DNA of 23,185 nt from the IMG/VR virus record IMGVR_UViG_3300012936_006787, positions 1-23,185 of that record; one strand, 5' to 3'. The translations under genes were made by a program, and so were the position numbers. Below the pieces are notes generated by a model that was given only the letters and a program-made list of their open reading frames with translations, did no database searches and had not been told where the DNA came from. Positions 2,570-15,502 of the stretch are shown here, one piece after another. How positions within the stretch are numbered: the stretch's first letter is position 1; each line of letters opens with the position of its first letter. Source of the DNA: a virus.

Positions 2570-3304
2570 ATGAGTTTGTTAAAACGTTATATAAAAGAAA
2601 GTTTGTTGTTAGAAAATAATTTAAATAGCAAAATATTAAGTATTGTTGATAAACTAGACGGTCTAGGCAAGAAAACAAAAGTTTTAATAGAGAGAATAGG
2701 TACTTCGGGATTTTCAGTTACAATTTTTGTTGAAAAAGAAAATATTGCTCATATTAGTTTTATGCTTGCTGATCGAGTTGAAAGAAAAGGTAAAAGAGAA
2801 AGAAAATGGGTTGTAAATCCTAGTGGAAGAGGTCCAAAAAAAAGAAAGGCATATCAAGTTGCGCATTCAAAAGCTGTTAAAGGTTTTGGTCCTTTAGTTT
2901 ATGAGATTGGATTGGAAGTAATATCAGGTTTGCTTATGTTTCCTGGTGCTTTATTGTCTGATAGAAGAAAAGTCTCACAAGATGCAAAAAAAGTTTGGGA
3001 TACTTATTTGAAAAGAGCTAGCACTGAGCAAGGTCTTCATGCTATTAAAATGGATATAGACACAGTGTCTCTAAAAAGAGCTAAGTTAAATCAAGGTATT
3101 GAAATTGAGCAAATGACGCCTGATTTTGAAGAAGATGATTTACGTCAAGATTCTACCTTAGATTATTTAAATTCAGGACAACAAAAAATAAACTGGAAAG
3201 ATGTTGAAATATCTCTTTGTTATGCATTTTATAAAGATAAGTTTACGGTGCTTTCGTACATAAATAAAAAAGATAATATTGACATAATTTATAATTTAGA
3301 TTAA
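2570..3304 (+). CDS. Tagged protein with GFGPLxYEIGLE core, 244 aa (paralogue of 7772-8554)
   Basis: Start ATG 2570 (MSLLKRYIKESLLLENN); the longer frame from 2501 would translate the intergenic repeat. The N-terminus has I8-K-E10 and L13-L-E15, both matching the (I/L)xE prohead-protease rule. The core around residues 112-165, KGFGPLVYEIGLEVISGLLM ... LSDRRKVSQDAKKVWDTYLK ... IKMD, is clearly homologous to the protein at 7772-8554. I have a general memory of 'GPLLYD.AME....LMSDR..VS..A..VW' proteins in marine phages; their function is not established to my knowledge. No membrane segment. Probably head-packaged, by analogy with its neighbours. Confidence 0.75.
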   Translation: MSLLKRYIKESLLLENNLNSKILSIVDKLDGLGKKTKVLIERIGTSGFSVTIFVEKENIAHISFMLADRVERKGKRERKWVVNPSGRGPKKRKAYQVAHSKAVKGFGPLVYEIGLEVISGLLMFPGALLSDRRKVSQDAKKVWDTYLKRASTEQGLHAIKMDIDTVSLKRAKLNQGIEIEQMTPDFEEDDLRQDSTLDYLNSGQQKINWKDVEISLCYAFYKDKFTVLSYINKKDNIDIIYNLD

Positions 3305-3320
3305 TATATACGCTTTTTAT

Positions 3321-3350
3321 CGAGCTGGGTGTCTCTAGAGTCACGGACGT
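3321..3350 (+). repeat. Intergenic 30-nt element, copy 1 (start of a 140-bp module)
   Basis: First of five copies of an element beginning CGAGCTGGGTGTCTCTAGAG and ending TCACGGACGT, 16 nt after a stop codon. It contains an imperfect dyad, GTG.CTCTAGAG.CAC. Copy 1 continues through ACGTAAAAAACGT, then the A/T-rich half at 3400-3434, and ends in the promoter-like 3445-3460. The whole 3321-3460 stretch is nearly identical to 4572-4711. Confidence 0.85.
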
Positions 3351-3444
3351 AAAAAACGTTTGCGGCACTTATTTGTAATAGTAATTTCAGTTTTTGTGCA
3401 AAAAACTTCGGGAGAAATTTTCGAAAACTTTTTGTATTTTCATT

Positions 3445-3460
3445 GATAAATAGATTTATA
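3445..3460 (+). promoter_or_regulatory. Promoter-like GATAAATAGATTTATA
   Basis: The same 16 bases occur at 4696-4711, and a close variant at 5994-6009. In both exact copies the box ends 28 nt before the ATG of a tagged gene. The conserved distance suggests an array promoter, perhaps related in kind to the T4 late box TATAAATA, but no -35 motif is evident. Confidence 0.5.
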
Positions 3461-3488
3461 ATATGTTTTAAAAGTAAGAGATTTATAT

Positions 3489-3803
3489 ATGCGTATAACT
3501 GAGAGTAGACTAAGAAGAATTATAAGAAGTGTGATAAGCGAAAATATGCCGTATGACAATCCGGATGAATATATGGGTTACGGGTCATATGGTGAAGTTG
3601 AAGATAGTAATGTGAGTCTTGAAGAGTTAGAAGAAATGTTGATGATACATAGTTATGAAGCCCAAAGAGCTGATGGTTATGGTGAAGTGATGCTAGCGAA
3701 AGGTGAGTATGAGTCTGGTGTTATTAGTAAAGACGAGTATATGGATTTGCTTAAACCATTTATAAATGATGTAATTGAGCAAAGTGGAAGATCTAGTTTT
3801 TAA
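3489..3803 (+). CDS. MRITES-tagged protein, 104 aa
   Basis: Begins MRITESRLRRIIRSVISE, the type example of the tag: a basic amphipathic stretch ending I16-S-E18. The rest is acidic and rich in Tyr, Gly and Met, with no cysteines and no membrane segment, and is unlike the bodies of the other tagged proteins. Preceded by the promoter-like box 3445-3460 and followed 18 nt after the stop by intergenic element copy 2. If the tag is a capsid-targeting propeptide, the mature protein starts at Asn19. The body is not recognised. Confidence 0.85.
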   Translation: MRITESRLRRIIRSVISENMPYDNPDEYMGYGSYGEVEDSNVSLEELEEMLMIHSYEAQRADGYGEVMLAKGEYESGVISKDEYMDLLKPFINDVIEQSGRSSF

Positions 3804-3821
3804 TTATTATGGGTTTTCACT

Positions 3822-3850
3822 CGAGCTGGGTGTCTCTAGTGTCACGACGT
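3822..3850 (+). repeat. Intergenic 30-nt element, copy 2 (short type)
   Basis: CGAGCTGGGTGTCTCTAGTG then TCACGACGT; one base shorter than copy 1 before ACGT and continuing into TTTACATATG rather than the A5 hairpin. The dyad has one more mismatch here. The same short form is seen in copy 5. The rest of the gap (3851-3924) carries TATATATAGATTATGAATAG and the GAGG ribosome binding site of the next gene. Confidence 0.85.
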
Positions 3851-3924
3851 TTACATATGTTAAATTTAAATTTGTAATTTGATTGTATATATAGATTATG
3901 AATAGAGATTAACGAGGATTGGAT

Positions 3925-4134
3925 ATGAGAATAACTGAAAGTAGATTGAGAAGAATTATCAAGGAAGAGTTAGATGCTCACGATAAAAGCTATTTAGCAA
4001 GAGGTCTAGAAGATTTGTATAATAGAACAAACATGGGGACATTAAATACAGAGAGTGATAGTGTTAAACTTAAGCAAGTAAGCGACAGTTTAATAGATTT
4101 AATACAGTTGTTGGAAAGAACAATAGCAAAATAG
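3925..4134 (+). CDS. MRITES-tagged protein, 69 aa
   Basis: Start ATG 3925 with GAGG 8 nt upstream; a TTG two codons earlier is rejected because the tag begins exactly at this Met. MRITESRLRRIIKEELDAHD has the (I/L)xE site four residues earlier than its relatives (I12-K-E14). The short body is helical and rich in Leu, with heptad-like spacing toward the C-terminus (VSDSLIDLIQLLERTIAK), so it may form a small coiled coil. Flanked by copies 2 and 3 of the intergenic element. Confidence 0.8.
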   Translation: MRITESRLRRIIKEELDAHDKSYLARGLEDLYNRTNMGTLNTESDSVKLKQVSDSLIDLIQLLERTIAK

Positions 4135-4139
4135 TTAGT

Positions 4140-4169
4140 CGAGTTGGGCGTTTCTTGAGTCACAGACGT
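4140..4169 (+). repeat. Intergenic 30-nt element, copy 3 (most divergent)
   Basis: CGAGTTGGGCGTTTCTTGAG then TCACAGACGT, only 5 nt after a stop codon. Six or so positions differ from copy 1, but GAG.TGGG, TTGAGTCAC and GACGT are kept. The remainder of the gap (4170-4233) has no second half and no exact promoter box. Confidence 0.8.
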
Positions 4170-4233
4170 AACAAGCTTTTCTGCTTTTAGTGATAATTAG
4201 TTATGTAGTATTTTTAAAGAAAGAAGATTTAAA

Positions 4234-4563
4234 ATGTATGTAACTGAGATTGGGTTGCGAAGATTATTTCGAAGTCCAATACGTGAAAGTGTTGAAGAAA
4301 TGATTAACGTTGAAGATATTAAAAATAGAGCATTGAATGGTGAAAAGCCTTATGATTATTTTGGTGTGTCTTTAGGGATGAATCCAAGCGTAGCAGAAAT
4401 TAGTTCTTTTGTGTATGCATATTGTTTTAAAAGAGGCATGTATGATCAAGAGGAAATAGAAAATTTAATTGCGCAAGTTGCTGCAGTTGTGGCGATTAAA
4501 GAGTCTGAAAAGTTGGAGCTTCACAAATATTATTTGGATTTAGTACAAGGCAATTACAACTGA
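4234..4563 (+). CDS. Protein with degenerate MRITES-type tag, 109 aa
   Basis: Starts MYVTEIGLRRLFRSPIRESV. The tag has drifted at many positions, yet I16-R-E18 is kept, which is what would be expected if the cleavage site rather than the whole tag is under selection. The body is mostly helical (about 90 residues) without cysteine pairs or membrane segments; residues 57-85 (PSVAEISSFVYAYCF...EEIENLIAQVAAVVAIK) look like a small helical domain. AAGAAAGAAG precedes the ATG. Flanked by element copies 3 and 4. Function unknown. Confidence 0.8.
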   Translation: MYVTEIGLRRLFRSPIRESVEEMINVEDIKNRALNGEKPYDYFGVSLGMNPSVAEISSFVYAYCFKRGMYDQEEIENLIAQVAAVVAIKESEKLELHKYYLDLVQGNYN

Positions 4564-4571
4564 TAGTTGCT

Positions 4572-4601
4572 CGAGCTGTGTATCTCTTGAGTCACAGACG
4601 T
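4572..4601 (+). repeat. Intergenic 30-nt element, copy 4 (start of second 140-bp module)
   Basis: CGAGCTGTGTATCTCTTGAG then TCACAGACGT, 8 nt after a stop. It is followed by ACGTAAAAAACGT, TATTTGTAATAGTAATTTCAG, the A/T-rich half (4651-4685) and the promoter-like box (4696-4711). Apart from scattered substitutions, 4572-4711 repeats 3321-3460. Confidence 0.85.
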
Positions 4602-4695
4602 AAAAAACGTTTTCGACACTTATTTGTAATAGTAATTTCAGCTTTTTAGCAAAAAATTTTCGGGAGAAATTTTGGAAAACTTTTGACATTTCAGT

Positions 4696-4711
4696 GATAA
4701 ATAGATTTATA
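4696..4711 (+). promoter_or_regulatory. Promoter-like GATAAATAGATTTATA, second copy
   Basis: Identical in all 16 bases to 3445-3460, and the start codon follows at the same distance (28 nt, ATG 4739). Confidence 0.5.
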
Positions 4712-4738
4712 TATTATTGTTTAAGAAAGGTTTTTTTA

Positions 4739-5428
4739 ATGAGAATAACTGAGAGCAAGTTAAGAAAGATAATTCGTCAAGTAATAAAAGAAAGTGCTGG
4801 TGGATCACATAGTTGGTATTCTGATTGGGTGGAAGCAACAGAAAAAATTAAAAAAAGAAGTTTATCAAAGATTTCATATGACTGTCTAAACGACTTTGGT
4901 ATTACTCATGTTGATGCAAATAGTAACGATAGTATTGTATATAATTTAACTAAATTTCAAGATAGAGGAATTTCTGAGGGTGAGTTAACATCTATTCTTT
5001 CTAAAATATCAAGCGTACCTGCTGCAGATGCTGATGAGATGTCAAGACTTAATTTAATGTTTACAGCGACTGTTGGTTTGCTAATAGAAAATGGAAAGTT
5101 AAAAGTTAATTTCGGTGCTAAAGACAAAAAAGCATTAAAACAAATGAAATCTGGAGAGATGGCGATTGTGGGTGCGATAAAATCTGGAAATGATAAGTTG
5201 TCATCTTGTTTAATATATGAAAAGCCAGGCAATCATTCAACGGTTGACACGAGTAATTATTTTGTAATTGAACAAAATCCTCATAATCACAAGATATTTG
5301 ATAGAAAAGAGGCTGGTAATATAAGAAGGTATAACGAAAAACAGCAAGCTGATTATTTAGAGCGCAGGAAAAAAGCTGAGCGAAAAAGAAAAGATGAAGA
5401 GCTTCCTTGGTACGAATATACTAGATAA
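4739..5428 (+). CDS. MRITES-tagged protein, 229 aa
   Basis: Start ATG 4739, where the tag MRITESKLRKIIRQVIKE begins (I16-K-E18); the frame is open 45 nt further upstream, but that part lies in the promoter-like repeat. AAAGG lies 9 nt upstream. The body has a region KKALKQMKSGEMAIVGAIKS and a very basic, Arg/Lys/Glu-rich C-terminal helix (about residues 190-225), which would suit binding to DNA or packaging in the head. No known domain recognised. Flanked by element copies 4 and 5. Confidence 0.8.
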   Translation: MRITESKLRKIIRQVIKESAGGSHSWYSDWVEATEKIKKRSLSKISYDCLNDFGITHVDANSNDSIVYNLTKFQDRGISEGELTSILSKISSVPAADADEMSRLNLMFTATVGLLIENGKLKVNFGAKDKKALKQMKSGEMAIVGAIKSGNDKLSSCLIYEKPGNHSTVDTSNYFVIEQNPHNHKIFDRKEAGNIRRYNEKQQADYLERRKKAERKRKDEELPWYEYTR

Positions 5429-5435
5429 TCTTTGA

Positions 5436-5464
5436 CTAGCTGGGTATCTCTAGAGTCACGACGT
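5436..5464 (+). repeat. Intergenic 30-nt element, copy 5 (short type)
   Basis: CTAGCTGGGTATCTCTAGAG then TCACGACGT, 7 nt after a stop. Like copy 2 it continues TTTA and lacks the A5 hairpin. This is the last copy; the gap after 5970 has none. Confidence 0.85.
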
Positions 5465-5541
5465 TTATGTGTATTAAATCTTTTTAACTGATTTGTTTAA
5501 ACATATATAATAATATAGAAAGAACAAACAAGGATTTATAT

Positions 5542-5970
5542 ATGACACAGATTAGATATGTGCCTCAAGTGCCTAAAACGTTAAGTGAAGCGTTGAGAGT
5601 AACAGCAAAGCGCATTGCTTCTGGGAGTCGTTATAAGTGGACACATATGGGAGCATGTAATTGTGGGCATTTAGCGCAGACTGTGACTTTTAATTCGCCT
5701 GAAGTGTTGCATAAGATTGCTTTGCAGAGAGCCGGTGATTGGGCTGAGCAGACGAGAGAATATTGTCCGACAAGTGGATATCCTCTTGACTTTGTGATTA
5801 GCTCTTTGTTGGATTTAGGTGCAACTTTGCAAGAGTTAAGAGATCTTGAGCGATTGAGTGATCCAAAAGTGTTAAAGCGAATTCCTGTCGAGAGGCGACG
5901 AAATTTAAATCACCGTCGACGAGAAGACGTTGTGTTGTATATGGAGACTTGGGCTAAAATGCTCAAATGA
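5542..5970 (+). CDS. Conserved bacterial-type protein with ACNCGHLAQT motif, 142 aa
   Basis: Untagged protein within the tagged array. Residues 38-48 (GACNCGHLAQT), about 67-84 (DWAEQTREYCPTSGYPLDFV) and 101-128 (DLERLSDPKVLKRIP...NHRRREDV) match my memory of a conserved but uncharacterised cellular protein family from several bacterial phyla. Cys39, Cys41, His43 and Cys75 could bind a metal. The ATG 5542 has CAAGGA 9 nt upstream. It uses more TTG, GTG and CGA codons than its neighbours, which together with its cellular look suggests recent acquisition. Function not known. Confidence 0.8.
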   Translation: MTQIRYVPQVPKTLSEALRVTAKRIASGSRYKWTHMGACNCGHLAQTVTFNSPEVLHKIALQRAGDWAEQTREYCPTSGYPLDFVISSLLDLGATLQELRDLERLSDPKVLKRIPVERRRNLNHRRREDVVLYMETWAKMLK

Positions 5971-6129
5971 CAGAGAAATATTAATATTTAATTAATAGAT
6001 AGATTTATATAATATTTTTAATGTGAGAGTTAGATCATGTTGAAGGTGTGATTGATGCTTGTGTCTTTTCTGAGTTACTTTGAAGGTTGACTAATAAGTA
6101 GATTTGGCTTATTTGAAAGGGCATTTATT
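5971..6129 (+). other. Gap with promoter-like box and a possible gene remnant
   Basis: The box AATAGATAGATTTATA at 5994-6009 resembles the array promoters. At the same 28-nt distance an ATG (6037) follows with GAGAG upstream, but the frame stops after four codons (MLKV). No tag is recognisable. This looks like a slot whose gene has been lost or broken. TGGCTTATTTG (6105-6115) recurs at 6384-6394. Confidence 0.35.
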
Positions 6130-6375
6130 GTGAGTCGAATTATTTGTTTTTTTTTGTTTCTTGTATTATGTTGTAGTGATTATCATGACAACGAAGGATT
6201 TAATAGTTTGGGTGAAAAGAAGGTGTGTGACTCGATAAAAGTGCGAGTTCGGGCATGCACTGGAGAAGGAGTTGAGAATTGGGGTGGGTGTCATGAAGTT
6301 GACGAAGACATTGCTTGGGAGAGTGATTGTGGAGAGGTAAAGTGGAAGTTAAGATTAGGTAATCTGGAGAATTAA
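6130..6375 (+). CDS. Small predicted lipoprotein, 81 aa
   Basis: GTG start with AAAGGG 9 nt upstream. The N-terminus MSRIICFFLFLVLCCSDYHD is a lipoprotein signal peptide with a lipobox at about LVLC14 and a second Cys beside it. The mature protein has four more cysteines and is acidic. It would be anchored in the host inner or outer membrane. Phage-coded small lipoproteins of this kind include spanin subunits and superinfection-exclusion proteins; neither role can be assigned from sequence. It lies between array genes without an intergenic element. Confidence 0.7.
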   Translation: MSRIICFFLFLVLCCSDYHDNEGFNSLGEKKVCDSIKVRVRACTGEGVENWGGCHEVDEDIAWESDCGEVKWKLRLGNLEN

Positions 6376-6444
6376 ATATATGCTGGCTTATTTGTTTATT
6401 GGTGTATATTTATATTTGGTTTTTAAAGATTAATGGAGCGTTAA

Positions 6445-7038
6445 ATGAAAATAACAGAGAGTAAGTTAAGAAGAATTATAAAACAAGTATTGATTGAAAT
6501 TAATTCACCTCAACAAGCTCGAGCTGCAATGGCTGTATCTAAAGCATATCGTGATGAAGGTGATTTTGAAGAAGCATTCGCAAAAGCTTTTCCTGAAGTA
6601 CAAAAAGAAAAGCGAAAAGGTATTAATTTAAGAAAGCGAAAAGGTATTAATTTAAGAAAAGGTCATGATAAACTTACACAAAAAAGACTAATTTCAAAAC
6701 TTAAAAAAGATTTAAAACTTGAAGACGATATAATTCCTGAAAGAGAACTCTCGTTTTCTAAAAGCTTTGGTAAAGAAATGAAATCAAAAGAAACAGTTAT
6801 GATAAAATATGACGTTGCTTTGCTTGGAGCCGAAAAAGACGAAAGCAAGACTAACAGTTTTATAGGACCACTCACAGGAAAGTCTAGTTTTTTAATTAGA
6901 TACGAAGGTAATGTATTTTCTGTTAAAATAAAATACAAGTATCCTGAGGATAGAACTCAACATTTAGATGATATGACAAAGAAACTTAGAGACCTAGGTC
7001 TAAAAAGAGTATATATAAGTAATGCAAGTGATCTTTGA
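6445..7038 (+). CDS. MKITES-tagged protein, 197 aa
   Basis: Tag MKITESKLRRIIKQVLIE with L16-I-E18. TGGAG lies 8 nt before the ATG. Residues 22-50 resemble a helical segment (QQARAAMAVSKAYRDEGDFE). A perfect 24-bp tandem duplication gives a doubled RKGINLRK at about residues 57-72, making a highly basic patch. The C-terminal half (YDVALLGAEKDES...SFLIRYEGNVFSVKIKYKYP) appears beta-rich; the end has KKLRDLGLKRVYIS. No family recognised. The basic linker would suit DNA contact inside a capsid. Confidence 0.8.
   Translation: MKITESKLRRIIKQVLIEINSPQQARAAMAVSKAYRDEGDFEEAFAKAFPEVQKEKRKGINLRKRKGINLRKGHDKLTQKRLISKLKKDLKLEDDIIPERELSFSKSFGKEMKSKETVMIKYDVALLGAEKDESKTNSFIGPLTGKSSFLIRYEGNVFSVKIKYKYPEDRTQHLDDMTKKLRDLGLKRVYISNASDL
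6611..6658 (+). repeat. Perfect 24-bp tandem duplication within the 197-aa gene
   Basis: The 24-bp unit beginning AGCGAAAAGGTATTAATTTA occupies 6611-6634 and again 6635-6658 without a mismatch. It keeps the frame and adds eight residues. Lack of divergence suggests a recent event. Confidence 0.9.
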
Positions 7039-7051
7039 TTAAGGTTTAAAC

Positions 7052-7327
7052 ATGAGAATAACAGAAAGCAAGATAAGAAGTATTATAAGAAGTATATTGC
7101 TCGAGTCACCTAGACATGACCACATAAATAATTACGAAAAACTAGAAGAGCAAAATGCGACTGAGTGCTTGACTAACGGTGCCCAATTTAATACGCAAAT
7201 AGAACCAAGAAAAGTAAGCATTTCAGTTGATATGCCTTTTGACTTAAATATTGACGAAGAAGAAGCAATTAAATTAGAAAATTTACTTCATAATGCAGTT
7301 GAATTAGTTTTAAGCAGATATTTTTAG
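7052..7327 (+). CDS. MRITES-tagged protein, 91 aa
   Basis: Tag MRITESKIRSIIRSILLE with L16-L-E18; AAGG is 8 nt upstream of the ATG. It starts 13 nt after the preceding stop, so the two are probably co-transcribed. The body is acidic with a beta-like stretch (RKVSISVDMPFDLNI) followed by a helix (EEEAIKLENLLHNAVELVLS). One Cys. Not recognised. Confidence 0.8.
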   Translation: MRITESKIRSIIRSILLESPRHDHINNYEKLEEQNATECLTNGAQFNTQIEPRKVSISVDMPFDLNIDEEEAIKLENLLHNAVELVLSRYF

Positions 7328-7369
7328 TATTTAGAGAATAATTATAATATTGTTTTAAAAGGAATTTTT

Positions 7370-7732
7370 ATGAGAATAACAGAGAGTAGATTAAGAAATA
7401 TTATAAAAAATACAATTAATGAAATGAGTCATGATGCACTTGACCACTATTCAGGACCTGAGTCATATGTAGGTATGGGTGGTGGTAATGTATATGCAAC
7501 AAACAATGAGCTTATGAATAGAGCAAGATCTTGTATGAACATGTCTGCTACTGATCTTATGGCTATGTGTGCTGAGATTTGCAAAAAAAATCCTGAAATG
7601 GCTCAACATTGTGCTAATTTATGTGTAGCAGTGTTATGTGATGGAAACATGAATGGTTGTTGTGAATGTCTCGAAAGTATTTGCCAATGTGAGCACTGTT
7701 GTGAAGTTTGTGTAAGATGTTGTGGATGCTAA
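7370..7732 (+). CDS. MRITES-tagged Cys-rich protein, possible metal store, 120 aa
   Basis: Tag MRITESRLRNIIKNTINE with I16-N-E18; AAGGA 6 nt upstream. Residues 20-50 are Gly/Tyr-rich. From residue 55 to the end there are 17 cysteines in helical-type spacing: C67AEIC71, C81ANLC85, C90, then CC.C, C.C, CC, C, CC.C. The CAEIC...CANLC pattern resembles four-helix, Cys-lined copper-storage (Csp/DUF326-type) proteins, but His residues are few and the C-terminal part is denser in Cys than that family. A head-packaged metal- or redox-buffering protein is an inference. Alternative: a disulfide-rich peptide unrelated to Csp. Confidence 0.75.
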   Translation: MRITESRLRNIIKNTINEMSHDALDHYSGPESYVGMGGGNVYATNNELMNRARSCMNMSATDLMAMCAEICKKNPEMAQHCANLCVAVLCDGNMNGCCECLESICQCEHCCEVCVRCCGC

Positions 7733-7771
7733 TTGCACGACATTAATTAGTTTGCATGAGGATAAGTTTCT

Positions 7772-8554
7772 GTGAATCGTAAAGAATACAAATTATTGGT
7801 TGAAGGTTGGCAGAATTTTTTAAAAGAGAGTCCAGTTAATATAAGTGGTATTACAAAAATAAAATCATTTGTTGATAGAATAGTTGCTTTACGTGAAGAG
7901 ACTGGGAAAGATATTAAAATTCGGGCGCGACTAAATGGAACTATATTAGAGGTTAACTTATTAAACTACTCAGTTTTAAGAATGAATGGCGTATTTTATC
8001 AAAAAGCATGGCTTAATCATCTCGGAAATGTAGATAGAAACGTAAAAGTTGATGGAGACCGTGATCCTTACGTAATAAAATATTCAGATGTAGGCGGGGG
8101 CTTTGGCCCTTTACTTTACGAGATAGGATTAGAGATTGTTAGCTGCAACTTGGGTGGTGCATTAATGAGTGATAGAGGTGAAGTATCTGAGGAAGCTGAA
8201 CGTGTTTGGGATCGTTATCTTAGAAGATCTAAGTCTGAGTTTAATATTGAAGCTATTAAGATGGACTTTACTGATGAATCTTGGGATGACGTAATGTATG
8301 ACGCACCATTTTCGGATATGGCAGACGAAGAGCAGGAAAGATTTAAGAAGACAAAAAAATATACTGAAAATGATCCAACAGATGACATATACCAATATTC
8401 AGCTATTTTAAATTCTGCTGAAAAGGGTGTTTTTGTTGACGGTGACTGGAAAAACTTTGAAAGCCCTTTAGCGTATGCATATTATAAGTTAGAGCCTGAA
8501 ATATTGGCATATATTGAAAGCTTAGAAGAAAACATACTTGAGATAGACATTTAA
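7772..8554 (+). CDS. Second-tag protein with GFGPLLYEIGLE core, 260 aa
   Basis: GTG start with GAGGATAAG upstream. N-terminus MNRKEYKLLVEGWQNFLKES is the second tag type, ending L9-V-E11. Residues about 109-163 (GGGFGPLLYEIGLEIVSCNL...GALMSDRGEVSEEAERVWDRYLRR...AIKMD) are homologous to the protein at 2570-3304, and both end with a weakly similar module containing 'AYAYYKLEPE' / 'CYAFYKDKFT'. Function of the core is not established. It starts 39 nt after the Cys-rich gene. The stop overlaps the stop of the minus-strand frame 8551-8697. Confidence 0.8.
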   Translation: MNRKEYKLLVEGWQNFLKESPVNISGITKIKSFVDRIVALREETGKDIKIRARLNGTILEVNLLNYSVLRMNGVFYQKAWLNHLGNVDRNVKVDGDRDPYVIKYSDVGGGFGPLLYEIGLEIVSCNLGGALMSDRGEVSEEAERVWDRYLRRSKSEFNIEAIKMDFTDESWDDVMYDAPFSDMADEEQERFKKTKKYTENDPTDDIYQYSAILNSAEKGVFVDGDWKNFESPLAYAYYKLEPEILAYIESLEENILEIDI

Positions 8555-8697
8555 ACTTGTTTGTTTAGCTCGTTAACTGTTTTTAATATATTTTGAATTT
8601 CATCTTCATTAAAACATTCTCTATTAATCGCTTCTTGCAATGTTCTAATTAAAATATTAATGCAAGTTAATTGTTTTTGATTTATCATGTAGTTCAT
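8551..8697 (-). CDS. Possible 48-aa antisense-strand small gene
   Basis: A minus-strand frame from ATG 8695-8697 (or 8686-8688) to TAA 8551-8553 fills the gap between two plus-strand genes. The product (MNYMINQKQLTCINILIRTL...) is a plausible short amphipathic helical protein with no low-complexity look. Its stop shares bases with the stop of the upstream plus gene. No Shine-Dalgarno is visible, although TATATTATAACTATT lies just upstream. Without it the 178-nt gap would be empty, which is unusual in this genome. Confidence 0.45.
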   Translation of the reverse strand: MNYMINQKQLTCINILIRTLQEAINRECFNEDEIQNILKTVNELNKQV

Positions 8698-8732
8698 AAT
8701 AGTTATAATATATAAGTTATAGTGAGTTTACA

Positions 8733-8990
8733 ATGTTTAAAGCAGTTAAGTATTTTATGATTTCTTTTATGTTCTTTTTTGCGTCAGCTATATCTTGTTC
8801 AGAAAAAAATGAAGAGGTAGTTATTCCTAAAACAGAGTGTGAGCAGATCAAAGATATCGTAACAGATTGTTTAGGTTTACACCGCGGCGCTTTGGGGTAT
8901 ATAAATAGTTGCGGTGACATATCTTTAGTAAGAATTAAAGCATTAAATAGTTGTAAAGAGATATTTAATCATATTGAAAACAAGGATTGA
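8733..8990 (+). CDS. Small predicted lipoprotein, 85 aa
   Basis: MFKAVKYFMISFMFFFASAI then SCSEK: a lipoprotein signal with lipobox around AIS-C22. The mature part has five further Cys, including paired-looking C.QIKDIVTDC and NSC...LNSC spacings, which would form disulfides in the periplasm. It shares layout, not obvious sequence, with the lipoprotein at 6130-6375. Its TGA is followed 2 nt later by the ATG of the next tagged gene. Spanin or exclusion lipoprotein are possible roles. Confidence 0.7.
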   Translation: MFKAVKYFMISFMFFFASAISCSEKNEEVVIPKTECEQIKDIVTDCLGLHRGALGYINSCGDISLVRIKALNSCKEIFNHIENKD

Positions 8991-8992
8991 CA

Positions 8993-9700
8993 ATGAATAG
9001 AAGTGAAACAAAGTTATTAGTTGAAAACTGGAGAAATCTACTGCATAGAGGAGAGTATACATGTGGTGCTGACTTTCTTGAATCATGCAATTTTGACGGA
9101 AAGTTTTTAAATGAATCATCAATTCAAAAAGCTAATACAAATAAATCAAAACTTTTAAATGTATTGGCAGCGTTAATGCTGTCTAGCAGCTTTGGTGGAG
9201 CTTTAAACAAAGTACAGGCAAAAGGTTTAGGAGGTCGAGCAAATGATGCTTTTAGCGAGATGGATGATTCTTTTAAACAGCAAGACTTGAATGAGGCAGA
9301 AAAAGAAGAAAAGCTTCTAATGACAATGCTAGACCTACTTGAAGAAGAAGCTGGGATGCCTTCAAGTTTAAGAAAAAGATTTGAAGATAAATATAAAAAT
9401 GGTGGCCCAGAGACTAAAGCAGCAATTATAATAATGTGCATGAAAAAAGTTAAGTCATTAGCACCCGAAGTAGCGAGACGTGGTAAGAGCGATCCTTTAG
9501 TTAAAAAATATAACGCTGTTGACGTTGCAAAAGAAACAGCAAAGGGAGAAAAAGACGGCAAAGGAAAAGATAAAAATGGTGAATTCATAATTAGGAATGG
9601 TAAAAAATTCTACTTAACTAGCACAAAAATTAACGTAACACACTTTAAAAATCAAAAAGAAATAGACAGAATGAAGAGTGCTGAAAAAGGAAGAAGATAA
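8993..9700 (+). CDS. Second-tag protein, 235 aa
   Basis: Start ATG 8993 (MNRSETKLLVENWRNLLHRG), aligned with the tag of the 260-aa protein: MNR-x-E-x-KLLVE-x-W-x-N-x-L, ending L9-V-E11. AAGGA is 8 nt upstream; a TTG two codons earlier is not needed. Residues about 44-70 (KSKLLNVLAALMLSSSFGGA) may be membrane-active. The middle is helical and charged (EKLLMTMLDLLEEEAGMPSS), and the C-terminus is very Lys-rich with a KGEKDGKGKDKNG linker. Function unknown; the basic tail suits packaging with DNA. Confidence 0.8.
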   Translation: MNRSETKLLVENWRNLLHRGEYTCGADFLESCNFDGKFLNESSIQKANTNKSKLLNVLAALMLSSSFGGALNKVQAKGLGGRANDAFSEMDDSFKQQDLNEAEKEEKLLMTMLDLLEEEAGMPSSLRKRFEDKYKNGGPETKAAIIIMCMKKVKSLAPEVARRGKSDPLVKKYNAVDVAKETAKGEKDGKGKDKNGEFIIRNGKKFYLTSTKINVTHFKNQKEIDRMKSAEKGRR

Positions 9701-9718
9701 ACATTTTTTATAACTTCT
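9692..9718. terminator. Possible bidirectional terminator between converging genes
   Basis: AGAAGATAAA pairs with TTTAT-AA-CTTCT around a short CATTT loop, giving about 10 base pairs with a 2-nt bulge across the ends of two converging genes. Both arms are AT-rich, and the run of T inside is not in the classic position. Weak call. Confidence 0.3.
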
Positions 9719-10469
9719 ACCAAGTGTAAACAATATTTGTCTTGACGACAAGATCATTCGTCAGTATATTTTCTGGTGGTTTTGTATCATACATATAATT
9801 AATAGAATTGTCTAGTGACATATTCCAAGAAGATATTAAAATTGTTCTGACGTTTGCCTCTAAACTGATTCTATAATCAGAAGGATTATCAAACAAAGGT
9901 TGATAATACAATGTTAACAGGATTAGATTCTTTTTCTTTTCGTCAAATGATTTAATCATCGTCAAATAAGATGTACCTCGCCATAAAGTGCTAGTTTTTT
10001 TATCTAAAATTACTTCATGATCAAGCATTACACCTGAACCTAAGCTAAGAGAAATATCTTCTTTTTTAATAATCTCTGCTCTTAATCCTCCACCGTTTAA
10101 CTGTCTTATCTTAAGAGACTTGAATTCGTCTTGCTGAAATTGGGTAAATAATTCTATGCCCACAATATTCCATTTCATCCATGTCCATCGAAAGTGTACA
10201 AAAGAATTGTTTTTAAATTTCTTGTCTGATTGTTTACCTTGTGTACTTTTTTCTTGCAAAAATACATGATGCTTTTTATTTTTAAAATGAATTAAAAAAT
10301 TTATATCAAAAGAAGTAATATCTACATTTCCTCTTTGAAGTTCAAGGCCTCCTTTAGCTTCTCCCCAAAATGGTTTTTCTTTGTTGTTGTTCCTAATAGA
10401 CTCAATATTAACCTGACTAAAAGAAAAGCTAGGTAAAAGAAACATTAAAATTAATAATATTTTCTTCAT
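9717..10469 (-). CDS. DUF481-like outer-membrane beta-barrel protein, 250 aa
   Basis: Signal peptide MKKILLILMFLLPSFSFS, cleavage before Gln. The mature protein has W-G-E-A-K-G-G-L-E-L-Q-R-G-N-V-D-like opening (residues 35-50), the hallmark of DUF481/YdiY-type 'salt-induced' outer-membrane proteins, then alternating hydrophobic/polar strands ending in TNIVYTW with a terminal aromatic, as expected for a barrel inserted by the BAM machinery. It has no tag. Start codon is 10 nt from the end of the lysozyme gene, so the two form one minus-strand unit. An outer-membrane barrel is unusual cargo for a phage and may alter the surface of infected cells. Confidence 0.7.
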   Translation of the reverse strand: MKKILLILMFLLPSFSFSQVNIESIRNNNKEKPFWGEAKGGLELQRGNVDITSFDINFLIHFKNKKHHVFLQEKSTQGKQSDKKFKNNSFVHFRWTWMKWNIVGIELFTQFQQDEFKSLKIRQLNGGGLRAEIIKKEDISLSLGSGVMLDHEVILDKKTSTLWRGTSYLTMIKSFDEKKKNLILLTLYYQPLFDNPSDYRISLEANVRTILISSWNMSLDNSINYMYDTKPPENILTNDLVVKTNIVYTW

Positions 10470-10478
10470 ATTTTTTCC

Positions 10479-11717
10479 TCATACAAACAAATGTGAATAT
10501 ACTCTTTTGAGTGATTCGTTATTACTTTTATCTTGAAAATTTCTTGGAGTAATAGATATTCTTATGTCTTCAATTCCTTTTTTAATAAGCTCATAATTTT
10601 CTTGAGGTCTGCCACTTCTTTGTAAGTCACTATGATATTTTGTTTTACCTTTTATTGTGCCATCCTCATTAAAATTATATAATATTTCTTTGGCAGCAAT
10701 TTTAAATAAATTAATAGCAACTTCAACTTCTTCTTCACTTAAGTCTTCACTGTCTAAGACTATAGCTGCGTGGCGCATTGTTTCGTTAAAGTTTTTAAAC
10801 TTATCTAAAAATCCTGGGCCCATATTATAAGCCATGTCATAAAAAGCCTGCTTTGTATCTTGAGGAAGTACTTTAAAGTATTTTACTTTGTTCATTTGAT
10901 CAATTACTTCAGCAACTTCTTGGTCTGCAGCAATACCAGCTTGCTGTAAATTTACAGGAGAAGTACTTGATGCATTGTCGTTCTCAATTGAATACGTATC
11001 AAAAAACTTTTCACGCCATCCTGGTATTTCTTTTTCTATCCAGTCAGCTTTGCTTACTCCTTTTTTTCTTTGCTTTTTCCAGTCATTTTCTAATCTCTCG
11101 TGTTCACCTTCATCAAGATTTGCATCAGTAAAAACTATTGTTCCGTGACCAATACTCCATTGATGATGATCTGGATATGGTAGTCCTCTAAATCCTTCAT
11201 GTCTAAGAATGCTTTGCTTAACTTTTTGCTTGTCAGTACTTTTATCATATTCTATTGTAAAATTAAAAGCTTGTTCAATTTCACCACTGCTTTCAGGATT
11301 TTGTTGAATTAAATTTCTCATTACCTTTTTTTCATTTGAAACTTGTGCAGCACTGGGCTTGCTACTTTGTGAGCCTGAAGAATTTTTTACGTAATCAGGT
11401 ATACCGTTCCAAAGACCTACTACTGTTGAAAGTGTTAAAATTCCTTTTAAAGCTAAACTAGACAAACCTTTATATCGTGGTTCTATGGCAGTCAACGCTT
11501 TAAATTCTTTGCTATCTTCTTTAATCTCTTCGTCAGGAGTGTAAACTTTTTTTGAAACAACAGGTGTTAAATTAGTTTGAACGTAATGACGAGGATTTTG
11601 ATCTTGAACTGGTATTAAGCCAAACTGAACATCTTTATGCTCTTGTTCTATACCTGACTCTATTAAAAATTTTTTAATTAAGTAATGACTTTTTTTATTC
11701 TCTGCTATAATAATCAT
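10479..11717 (-). CDS. GH24 (T4-type) lysozyme with tag-like N-terminus and TM segment, 412 aa
   Basis: Peptidoglycan muramidase domain from about residue 165: LRHEGFRGLPYPDHHQWSIG holds the catalytic Glu174 and Asp183 at the T4 lysozyme spacing, with Ser188 where T4 has Thr26; AFYDMAYNMGPGFLDKF (291-307) matches the helix of the same fold. The first 20 residues, MIIIAENKKSHYLIKKFLIE, end L18-I-E20 like the tagged proteins, and a hydrophobic segment lies at about 84-103. At 412 residues it is more than twice the size of T4 lysozyme. It may be carried in the virion and act on entry rather than at lysis; that is inference. AAAGG precedes the ATG. Confidence 0.75.
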   Translation of the reverse strand: MIIIAENKKSHYLIKKFLIESGIEQEHKDVQFGLIPVQDQNPRHYVQTNLTPVVSKKVYTPDEEIKEDSKEFKALTAIEPRYKGLSSLALKGILTLSTVVGLWNGIPDYVKNSSGSQSSKPSAAQVSNEKKVMRNLIQQNPESSGEIEQAFNFTIEYDKSTDKQKVKQSILRHEGFRGLPYPDHHQWSIGHGTIVFTDANLDEGEHERLENDWKKQRKKGVSKADWIEKEIPGWREKFFDTYSIENDNASSTSPVNLQQAGIAADQEVAEVIDQMNKVKYFKVLPQDTKQAFYDMAYNMGPGFLDKFKNFNETMRHAAIVLDSEDLSEEEVEVAINLFKIAAKEILYNFNEDGTIKGKTKYHSDLQRSGRPQENYELIKKGIEDIRISITPRNFQDKSNNESLKRVYSHLFV

Positions 11718-14424: not shown

Positions 14425-15303
14425 TTAAGATCCTGTTAATGTATTATATAAAAACATATATATTTCTTGAAGTAAAGGGTATATCCAACCAATATAATGT
14501 TTTAAATCTATTCCAGTCATTGTATAAAATATTGCATTACCATGAAAAGTATTTGCAGTTTTAATAAGTCCCCAAACGATATAACATAAAATTATAAAAG
14601 AAAGTCTATGTATAATCCACCAAAACAACTCATTTAATGTTTTATTTCGAAGTCTTGTCCTTATTTTTTTTGCGCCACCTATTCTTTTTGCTTTTTCACC
14701 ATCAGATGGGGGTTGTAATTGAGCTTCTATTAAGCCAATAGCATATATAGCTTCAGGTTCAGCAACACCTTTGAATTTATAAAGTCCAACAAGCGCTGAT
14801 AGTGCTTTACTTGGAATAAATCTGCTTCTATGACCGTATTTTTTATATTGCATATATGCTGATTTTGATAATAAAATTTGCTCTTCTCCACATATTGACA
14901 TAGTTCTTGCAGCTATATTTTTACCGATACCTTCTAGATTTATTCTTTTACCCCCAGCTCTTACTATATGTGCTTCAGATTTAACAATAAGCATTTTGTC
15001 CCAATGTATTCCTACTCTACTGCGAAAAGGAAATTTCTTTTTTCTAAGATATTTTTTATAATCAAAAGCAAAACCAATTGCATCTGAAACAGATGCAAAC
15101 ATCATGAGGTGGCCATCAGAAGCGTCTATTAACTGGCCATTATGTCTAGCAATAAAATTCATAACAGCTTTATCATGAATTCCAAACCAAGTTGCAGAAA
15201 TCTTCGAACCATTTCTTTGAACAAATTTTGTACTACCGATAATATCTGTAAGCACTATTGCAATATACGATTCAATCATATTTTCAGGTAAATAATTACT
15301 CAT
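14425..15303 (-). CDS. Class III nucleotidyl cyclase with two C-terminal TM helices, 292 aa
   Basis: Start ATG 15301-15303 (MSNYLPEN...), with AGGTG upstream and overlapping the preceding stop as ATGAGTAA. The cyclase domain covers about 12-185: metal-binding Asp20 (IVLTDIIGST) and Asp63 (DASDGHLMMF), and the catalytic Asn/Arg pair in GKNIAARTMS (about 119 and 123). The usual purine-selecting Lys before the second Asp is Asp60, and the partner Asp before NxAAR is not present, so ATP or GTP specificity cannot be assumed. Two TM helices follow (about 226-248 and 271-288). It would make a cyclic nucleotide at the membrane. Phage-coded class III cyclases are uncommon. Confidence 0.8.
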   Translation of the reverse strand: MSNYLPENMIESYIAIVLTDIIGSTKFVQRNGSKISATWFGIHDKAVMNFIARHNGQLIDASDGHLMMFASVSDAIGFAFDYKKYLRKKKFPFRSRVGIHWDKMLIVKSEAHIVRAGGKRINLEGIGKNIAARTMSICGEEQILLSKSAYMQYKKYGHRSRFIPSKALSALVGLYKFKGVAEPEAIYAIGLIEAQLQPPSDGEKAKRIGGAKKIRTRLRNKTLNELFWWIIHRLSFIILCYIVWGLIKTANTFHGNAIFYTMTGIDLKHYIGWIYPLLQEIYMFLYNTLTGS

Positions 15304-15502
15304 TTTTGCACCTACATACATCTATTATTTGTAAACAGTCATAACATACACAATCAGGCCATTTACATTCTAATGCGATAATGTTACATTTACAATTATG
15401 TTTAATGCATTCACAATCTTTATTGTCCAAATTACATAAAGGACAAATGTGATCTTCTGGAATTGGTTTTGTAAAATCTCTTGTTTTTTCATTAGAAGAC
15501 AT
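15296..15502 (-). CDS. Cys-rich zinc-binding-type protein, 68 aa
   Basis: Twelve cysteines in 68 residues: C20PLC23, C30EC32, C37KC39, C46, C51VC53YDC56, C63RC65. The CxxC and CxC pairs point to two or three zinc sites. AAGGA lies 7 nt before the ATG at 15500-15502. Its TAA overlaps the cyclase ATG, so the two are translationally coupled. No family recognised. As first gene of the cyclase cassette it could be a regulator or a scaffold of the enzyme. Confidence 0.65.
   Translation of the reverse strand: MSSNEKTRDFTKPIPEDHICPLCNLDNKDCECIKHNCKCNIIALECKWPDCVCYDCLQIIDVCRCKNE

Follow-up and report, generated by a model that had tools for sequence, protein, structure and literature searches.

In phage T4, entry of proteins into the prohead core requires the capsid-targeting sequence (CTS), a 10-residue propeptide that is removed by gp21 after L/I-x-E and in which the residues for targeting can be separated from those for processing (PMC9026906). 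The giant-phage fragment described here, IMG/VR record IMGVR_UViG_3300012936_006787 (23,185 nt, positions 1-23,185, hereafter the window), contains an island of genes at 2570-9700, whose products carry shared short N-terminal tags on otherwise unrelated bodies. With an estimated probability of about 0.8, these tags serve a T4-superfamily giant phage as capsid-targeting propeptides. From the sequence we infer that the tagged proteins would dock in the prohead, be cleaved, be retained in the virion, and be injected as effectors.

A first-pass annotation had described seven open reading frames (ORFs) within 3489-7732, starting at 3489, 3925, 4234, 4739, 6445, 7052, and 7370, with a common N-terminus in front of unrelated bodies, and both statements hold. 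This class A (MRITES-type) tag scores 38-48 bits in six of the seven ORFs with a 15-position position-specific scoring matrix (PSSM) whose seed included the window tags; in shuffled ORFs, 1 of 18,925 Met positions exceeds 8 bits. Past the tag, the seven bodies show no mutual similarity. Reading of the residues also bore out the reported (I/L)16-x-E18 in all ORFs except 3925, which has I12-x-E14, and the retention of I16 and E18 in the decayed tag of 4234 (MYVTEIGLRRLFRSPIRES; PIRE18↓S, with arrows marking predicted cuts). The class A tag itself contains a second formal IxE (I3-T4-E5). The set had been taken to comprise only these seven members and is in fact larger: clustering of N-termini over whole contigs revealed two further tag types, class B (MNRKEYKLLVEGWxxFLxE), represented by 7772 and 8993 in the window, and class C (MxLLxxYIxxLLxE), represented by 2570. 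Four of the tagged window genes have orthologues in related contigs with ratios of nonsynonymous to synonymous substitution rates (dN/dS) of 0.12-0.59, which is indicative of purifying selection and, thus, of real genes. These orthologues keep the cut site while the remainder drifts; VISE↓N is retained in 3/3 orthologues of 3489, and the cut sites in the 7370 family are TINE, TMNE, and VLNE.

The (I/L)xE site was analyzed in 143 non-redundant class A tags with the Glu at positions 15-26. It is present in 104 of them, compared to 47.3 ± 4.1 in column shuffles, and none of 500 shuffles reached the observed value; subfamily structure can couple columns in this comparison, yet it should then have lifted other offsets too, and no excess over the shuffles was found for [IL]xD or for [IL] at offsets 1, 3, and 4 before Glu. 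The residue following the site is Ser, Ala, or Asn in 63/109 cases vs 25/177 after other Glu residues. The extended motif [IL]xE[SNA] occurs in the matching N-terminal stretch of 45% of class A proteins and of 7% of untagged genes from the same genomes. The suggested fixation of the site at residue 18 is limited to the subfamily in the window, because relatives use different registers (E18 in 41, E19 in 10, E21 in 22, and E22 in 22 tags). For classes B and C, the corresponding figures involve some circularity, as the site was already present in their seeds.

Head packaging with gp21-type trimming, as proposed in the first-pass annotation together with a search for a gp21-like protease and for (I/L)xE sites in other head proteins, is well supported indirectly by the protease and gp23 in relatives, by a gp23-like site, and by tag-like N-termini of head-operon proteins. 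An S77 (gp21-type) protease was found in 17 of 65 tagged contigs overall. Among 18 records searched for gp23, this capsid protein and S77 are encoded in the same 12 contigs, including the closest relative G025, whose genes are ~88-92% identical to those of the window at 7772 and PhoH. An HK97-type Phage_capsid protein was found in none of 45 tagged contigs searched. The gp23 N-termini contain one conserved candidate cut, LLENQAAQVLRE↓SS or ALRE↓NS, which in eight relatives reads V/A-L-R/K-E↓S/N/A/V and, as compared by eye, lies at the position of the T4 gp23 cut. This predicted site resembles tag ends such as QVIKE↓SA. Furthermore, the interval between protease and scaffold encodes two small proteins whose N-termini resemble the tag (MAKVSRSMLKSIVKECLVELLAEG; VKITPSTIRRLVKEERARLNE) in every genome examined, and a small gene near gp23 resembles the class B tag (MNNTKLIMESWRKFLKE). 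With a hidden Markov model of the tag, 12 of 16 small head-operon proteins ranked within the top 46 of untagged genes.

Both of these conserved head-operon proteins, in which (I/L)xE occurs several times, look like core proteins. They lend some weight to the idea that the tagged proteins in general are transient core or scaffold parts of the prohead, which are cut and expelled before DNA packaging rather than injected. We regard this as unlikely, since the tagged bodies are diverse, fast-changing, and dissimilar even between close relatives, and some are enzyme-like. Few of 144 body representatives match known families, namely Nudix, AAA_33 kinase, PAP2, nicotinamide-nucleotide adenylyltransferase, DUF5824, and a handful of weak matches. 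A nine-sequence structure model of the 7772 protein (predicted local distance difference test score, pLDDT, 79) presents the tag as a separate low-confidence helix (residues 3-19), followed by a very low-confidence stretch holding the cut (17-23) and a folded domain. As the body has no match to known folds, no function is claimed. For the protein L015:2055-2729 and its relatives, an Alt-like ADP-ribosyltransferase had been considered based on YRG..SSWS motifs; it remains a weak lead (model pLDDT 38, no PDB or Pfam match).

For comparison, a length-weighted control sample of IMG/VR contigs was drawn with random 15-16-mers. Among contigs of at least 30 kb, S77 was present in 13/28 tagged vs 4/33 random contigs. 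In four large S77-negative contigs (908 genes), no N-terminal tag family with unrelated bodies was found. One of two further S77-positive controls, which the MRITES pattern had missed, encodes a seven-member family of its own (MNKDxxLxFEAYxK..) with [IL]xE in 86%. Three tagged contigs (G011, G012, and G014) yielded no cluster at the threshold used in this control. The observations bear on the question whether the tags could recruit proteins to another phage structure such as the replication complex, the membrane, or the tail, with (I/L)xE being incidental to an amphipathic Glu-rich helix. In favor of this, the tags form short helices of amphipathic character, and similarity to metabolic enzymes (Nudix, P-loop kinase, nicotinamide-nucleotide adenylyltransferase) is seen for a few of the bodies. 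Such recruitment is nevertheless improbable in our estimation, because three unrelated tags converge on (I/L)xE, often followed by S/A/N as in the gp23 site, because head-operon proteins bear the same motif, and because the four large S77-negative contigs lack such tags.

The tags behave as exchangeable modules, since the same body families occur under different tags. The body family of 7772 and 2570 is found with all three, namely tag A (L015), tag B (the window plus several relatives), and tag C (three proteins). A second, DUF5824-like body family (SRKGMSQHQWAHARVNS) carries tag A in two contigs (G005, G015) and tag C in two others (G011, G014), with body identities of up to 90%. The strict DNA pattern of the tag was detected in 62 IMG/VR contigs and, among bacterial metagenome-assembled genomes, in two contigs only, the bins of which also hold S77 prohead proteases. 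The 284-kb contig G015 encodes ~40 class A proteins, and the 484-kb uncultured-phage record LR756508 encodes 18 within 50 kb. A tblastn search of INPHARED with tag peptides returned weak unrelated matches only, and no paper mentioning these peptides was found in the literature collection searched. As a side observation, a tagged protein of G015 (L041:7413-8093, minus strand) has another tag-like stretch in its interior (RMTEADLREVIRNLLSE), immediately ahead of a conserved basic domain, as though two cuts were made, and L113:13553-14326 also has an internal tag. In the cultured Flavobacterium phage immuto (L169-L171), which has S77 and gp23, small N-terminal pairs (MKKSELVKLIKEEL / MKKSQLREIIRKEL; MENFDLKKFLVENKLT..) could be targeting tags of its own; the two candidate protein pairs are gp095/gp094 and gp077/gp076.

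At the DNA level, a 20-bp element (CTGGGTRTCTCTWGAGTCAC) is present in five copies in the window and in none of the shuffles. Together with five relatives, the window contains 21 copies, 18 of which are located 71-248 nt upstream of a class A or class B gene. The element may be a promoter or regulator of a tagged-gene regulon, or a recombination point. T4-late-type promoter motifs showed no clear enrichment upstream of tagged genes. The intergenic regions also contain 168-nt repeats (3320-3487 and 4571-4738, 79% identical), whose predicted RNA folding was no better than that of shuffles. This repetition of the 168-nt region and the 20-bp element in front of tagged genes would be expected if the shared N-terminus were a by-product of DNA repeats, that is, of a common promoter and start region driving gene shuffling or expression with no function of the peptide. 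Such an origin is very improbable, because conservation of the tags at the protein level extends over phages with 27-53% GC and because body families have exchanged one tag for another of unrelated sequence.

According to the favored interpretation as capsid-targeting propeptides, the amphipathic tag would dock the protein on the prohead core during assembly. The S77 protease would then cut after (I/L)xE at the tag end, in the maturation step in which the gp23-type capsid protein is trimmed as well, and the freed body would stay with the packaged DNA and probably reach the next host by injection. The head could be entered by way of class A (MRITES..), B (MNRKEYKLLVEGW..), or C interchangeably, and the island would represent a reshuffling set of packaged proteins. 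Several points weigh against this interpretation. The excess over column shuffles could be inflated by subfamily structure of the tags, (I/L)xE is fairly frequent by chance in helical Glu-rich tags, and 27% of class A tags have no such site at E15-26. The genes for protease and capsid are absent from the window itself. Among contigs of at least 100 kb, the contrast in S77 is weak (7/9 tagged vs 4/7 random); large random contigs often carry S77 too, so its co-occurrence was rejected as sole proof. Finally, the bodies are acidic on average, unlike the basic T4 internal proteins (median net charge per 100 residues -3.0 in class A, -3.7 in class B, and 0.3 in class C).

Table 1. Tagged genes and 20-bp elements of the island (aa, amino acids; arrows, predicted cuts).
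Position	Strand	Feature	Supporting observations
2570-3304	+	Class C tag (MSLLKRYIKE↓SLLLE↓N), body family shared with 7772	38% body identity to 7772, E=6e-26
3325-3344	+	20-bp element CTGGGTGTCTCTAGAGTCAC, 5' of tagged 3489	
3489-3803	+	Class A protein, 104 aa; tag 3489-3542; VISE18↓N	Orthologues L069 and L053 keep VISE↓N, dN/dS 0.13-0.24
3826-3845	+	20-bp element, 5' of 3925	
3925-4134	+	Class A protein, 69 aa; IKE14↓E	
4144-4163	+	20-bp element with 3 mismatches, 5' of 4234	
4234-4563	+	Decayed class A tag, 109-aa protein; PIRE18↓S kept	
4576-4595	+	20-bp element, 5' of 4739	
4739-5428	+	Class A protein, 229 aa; VIKE18↓S	Orthologues L069 88% and L053 95% identical
5440-5459	+	20-bp element, 5' of untagged 5542	
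5542-5970	+	Untagged gene within the island, 142 aa	L068 homologue likewise 3' of the 20-bp element
6445-7038	+	Class A protein, 197 aa; VLIE18↓I	
7052-7327	+	Class A protein, 91 aa; ILLE18↓S	
7370-7732	+	Class A Cys-rich protein, 120 aa; TINE18↓M	Homologues L020, L068, and L070 keep M/LNE
7772-8554	+	Class B tag (MNRKEYKLLVEGWQNFLKE19↓S), 260-aa protein	Tag clustering, body comparison, structure model
8993-9700	+	Class B protein (MNRSETKLLVE11↓NW), 235 aa	N-terminal clustering

Two of the tagged genes have further peculiarities. The protein encoded at 7370-7732 contains ~17 Cys residues, is conserved in four phages, and may bind metal. Gene 6445 contains an exact 24-nt tandem duplication at 6609-6656, giving RKGINLRKRKGINLRK. 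Beside the island, a DUF481 protein (Pfam, E=8e-18), probably of the outer-membrane type, is encoded on the minus strand at 9717-10469. A protein with a weak phage-lysozyme match is encoded at 10479-11717 (minus strand); its N-terminus MIIIAENKKSHYLIKKFLIESG also ends with LxE↓S and is possibly a diverged tag; the N-terminus of gene 12111 (..NRLLTEN) is similar to it. A probable class III nucleotidyl cyclase is encoded at 14425-15321 on the minus strand (PDB match to cyclase Ma1120, E=3e-6). Its C-terminal segments are hydrophobic and possibly membrane-spanning, and such an enzyme, encoded by a phage, could have a part in second-messenger signalling. The region 1-2300 differs in composition, with a GC content of ~0.43 in the first 2 kb vs 0.22-0.38 elsewhere and genes mainly on the minus strand, and is possibly a recent acquisition or an assembly join.

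Rapid evolution and the lack of recognizable domains make it difficult to identify phage effectors that are delivered along with the DNA. If the tags are targeting propeptides, the packaged proteins of many uncultured giant phages could be listed with a simple N-terminal profile. The ~160 class A proteins already at hand, nearly all outside known families, would then be candidates that can be tested for roles in host takeover and counter-defence, and the tags themselves would be new means of loading cargo into phage heads. With less assurance, we lean towards a broader picture, in which widespread environmental T4-superfamily giant phages share a modular head-loading code. The removable tags of this code, several in number, mutually unrelated, and interchangeable, would have relatives among the prohead-core proteins and a cis element dedicated to them. 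They would load dozens of exchangeable proteins per virion, a large uncharted pool of injected effectors that is recognizable from sequence alone.

Among known systems, encapsulin cargo-loading peptides are short tags that bring unrelated cargo into a shell with HK97 fold; they are usually C-terminal and not removed. The tags described here are likewise short and attached to unrelated proteins, but they are N-terminal, end in a predicted protease site, and belong to a phage with a T4-type head. The ejection proteins of phages phiKZ and SPN3US are similar in that a gp21-related protease cuts head proteins after a short motif ending in Glu and in that many proteins are packaged and ejected, but their propeptides are mostly much longer (several >100 residues), and sharing of propeptides is unreported except for gp53/gp54 (PMC5694885). 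In contrast, the tags of the giant phages comprise 14-22 residues and are widely shared. The closest parallel is provided by IPI-III and Alt of T4, which have in common with the tagged proteins a short N-terminal propeptide on unrelated bodies, an (I/L)xE end, a gp21-type protease together with gp23, and a variable repertoire. Similarity of the tags to the T4 CTS MKTYQEFI(A/S)E (class means 8.7, 13.4, and 11.3 vs 5.3-5.8 in shuffles) may be due for the most part to the (I/L)xE end common to both and does not amount to clear homology. Judged by sequence features, the best reading is that the tags work like the T4 CTS but with other sequences, in three interchangeable classes, and with a much larger repertoire of up to ~40 proteins per genome vs a handful in T4; unlike in T4, the bodies are mostly acidic, head-operon proteins have tag-like N-termini, and a 20-bp element is shared by the tagged genes.

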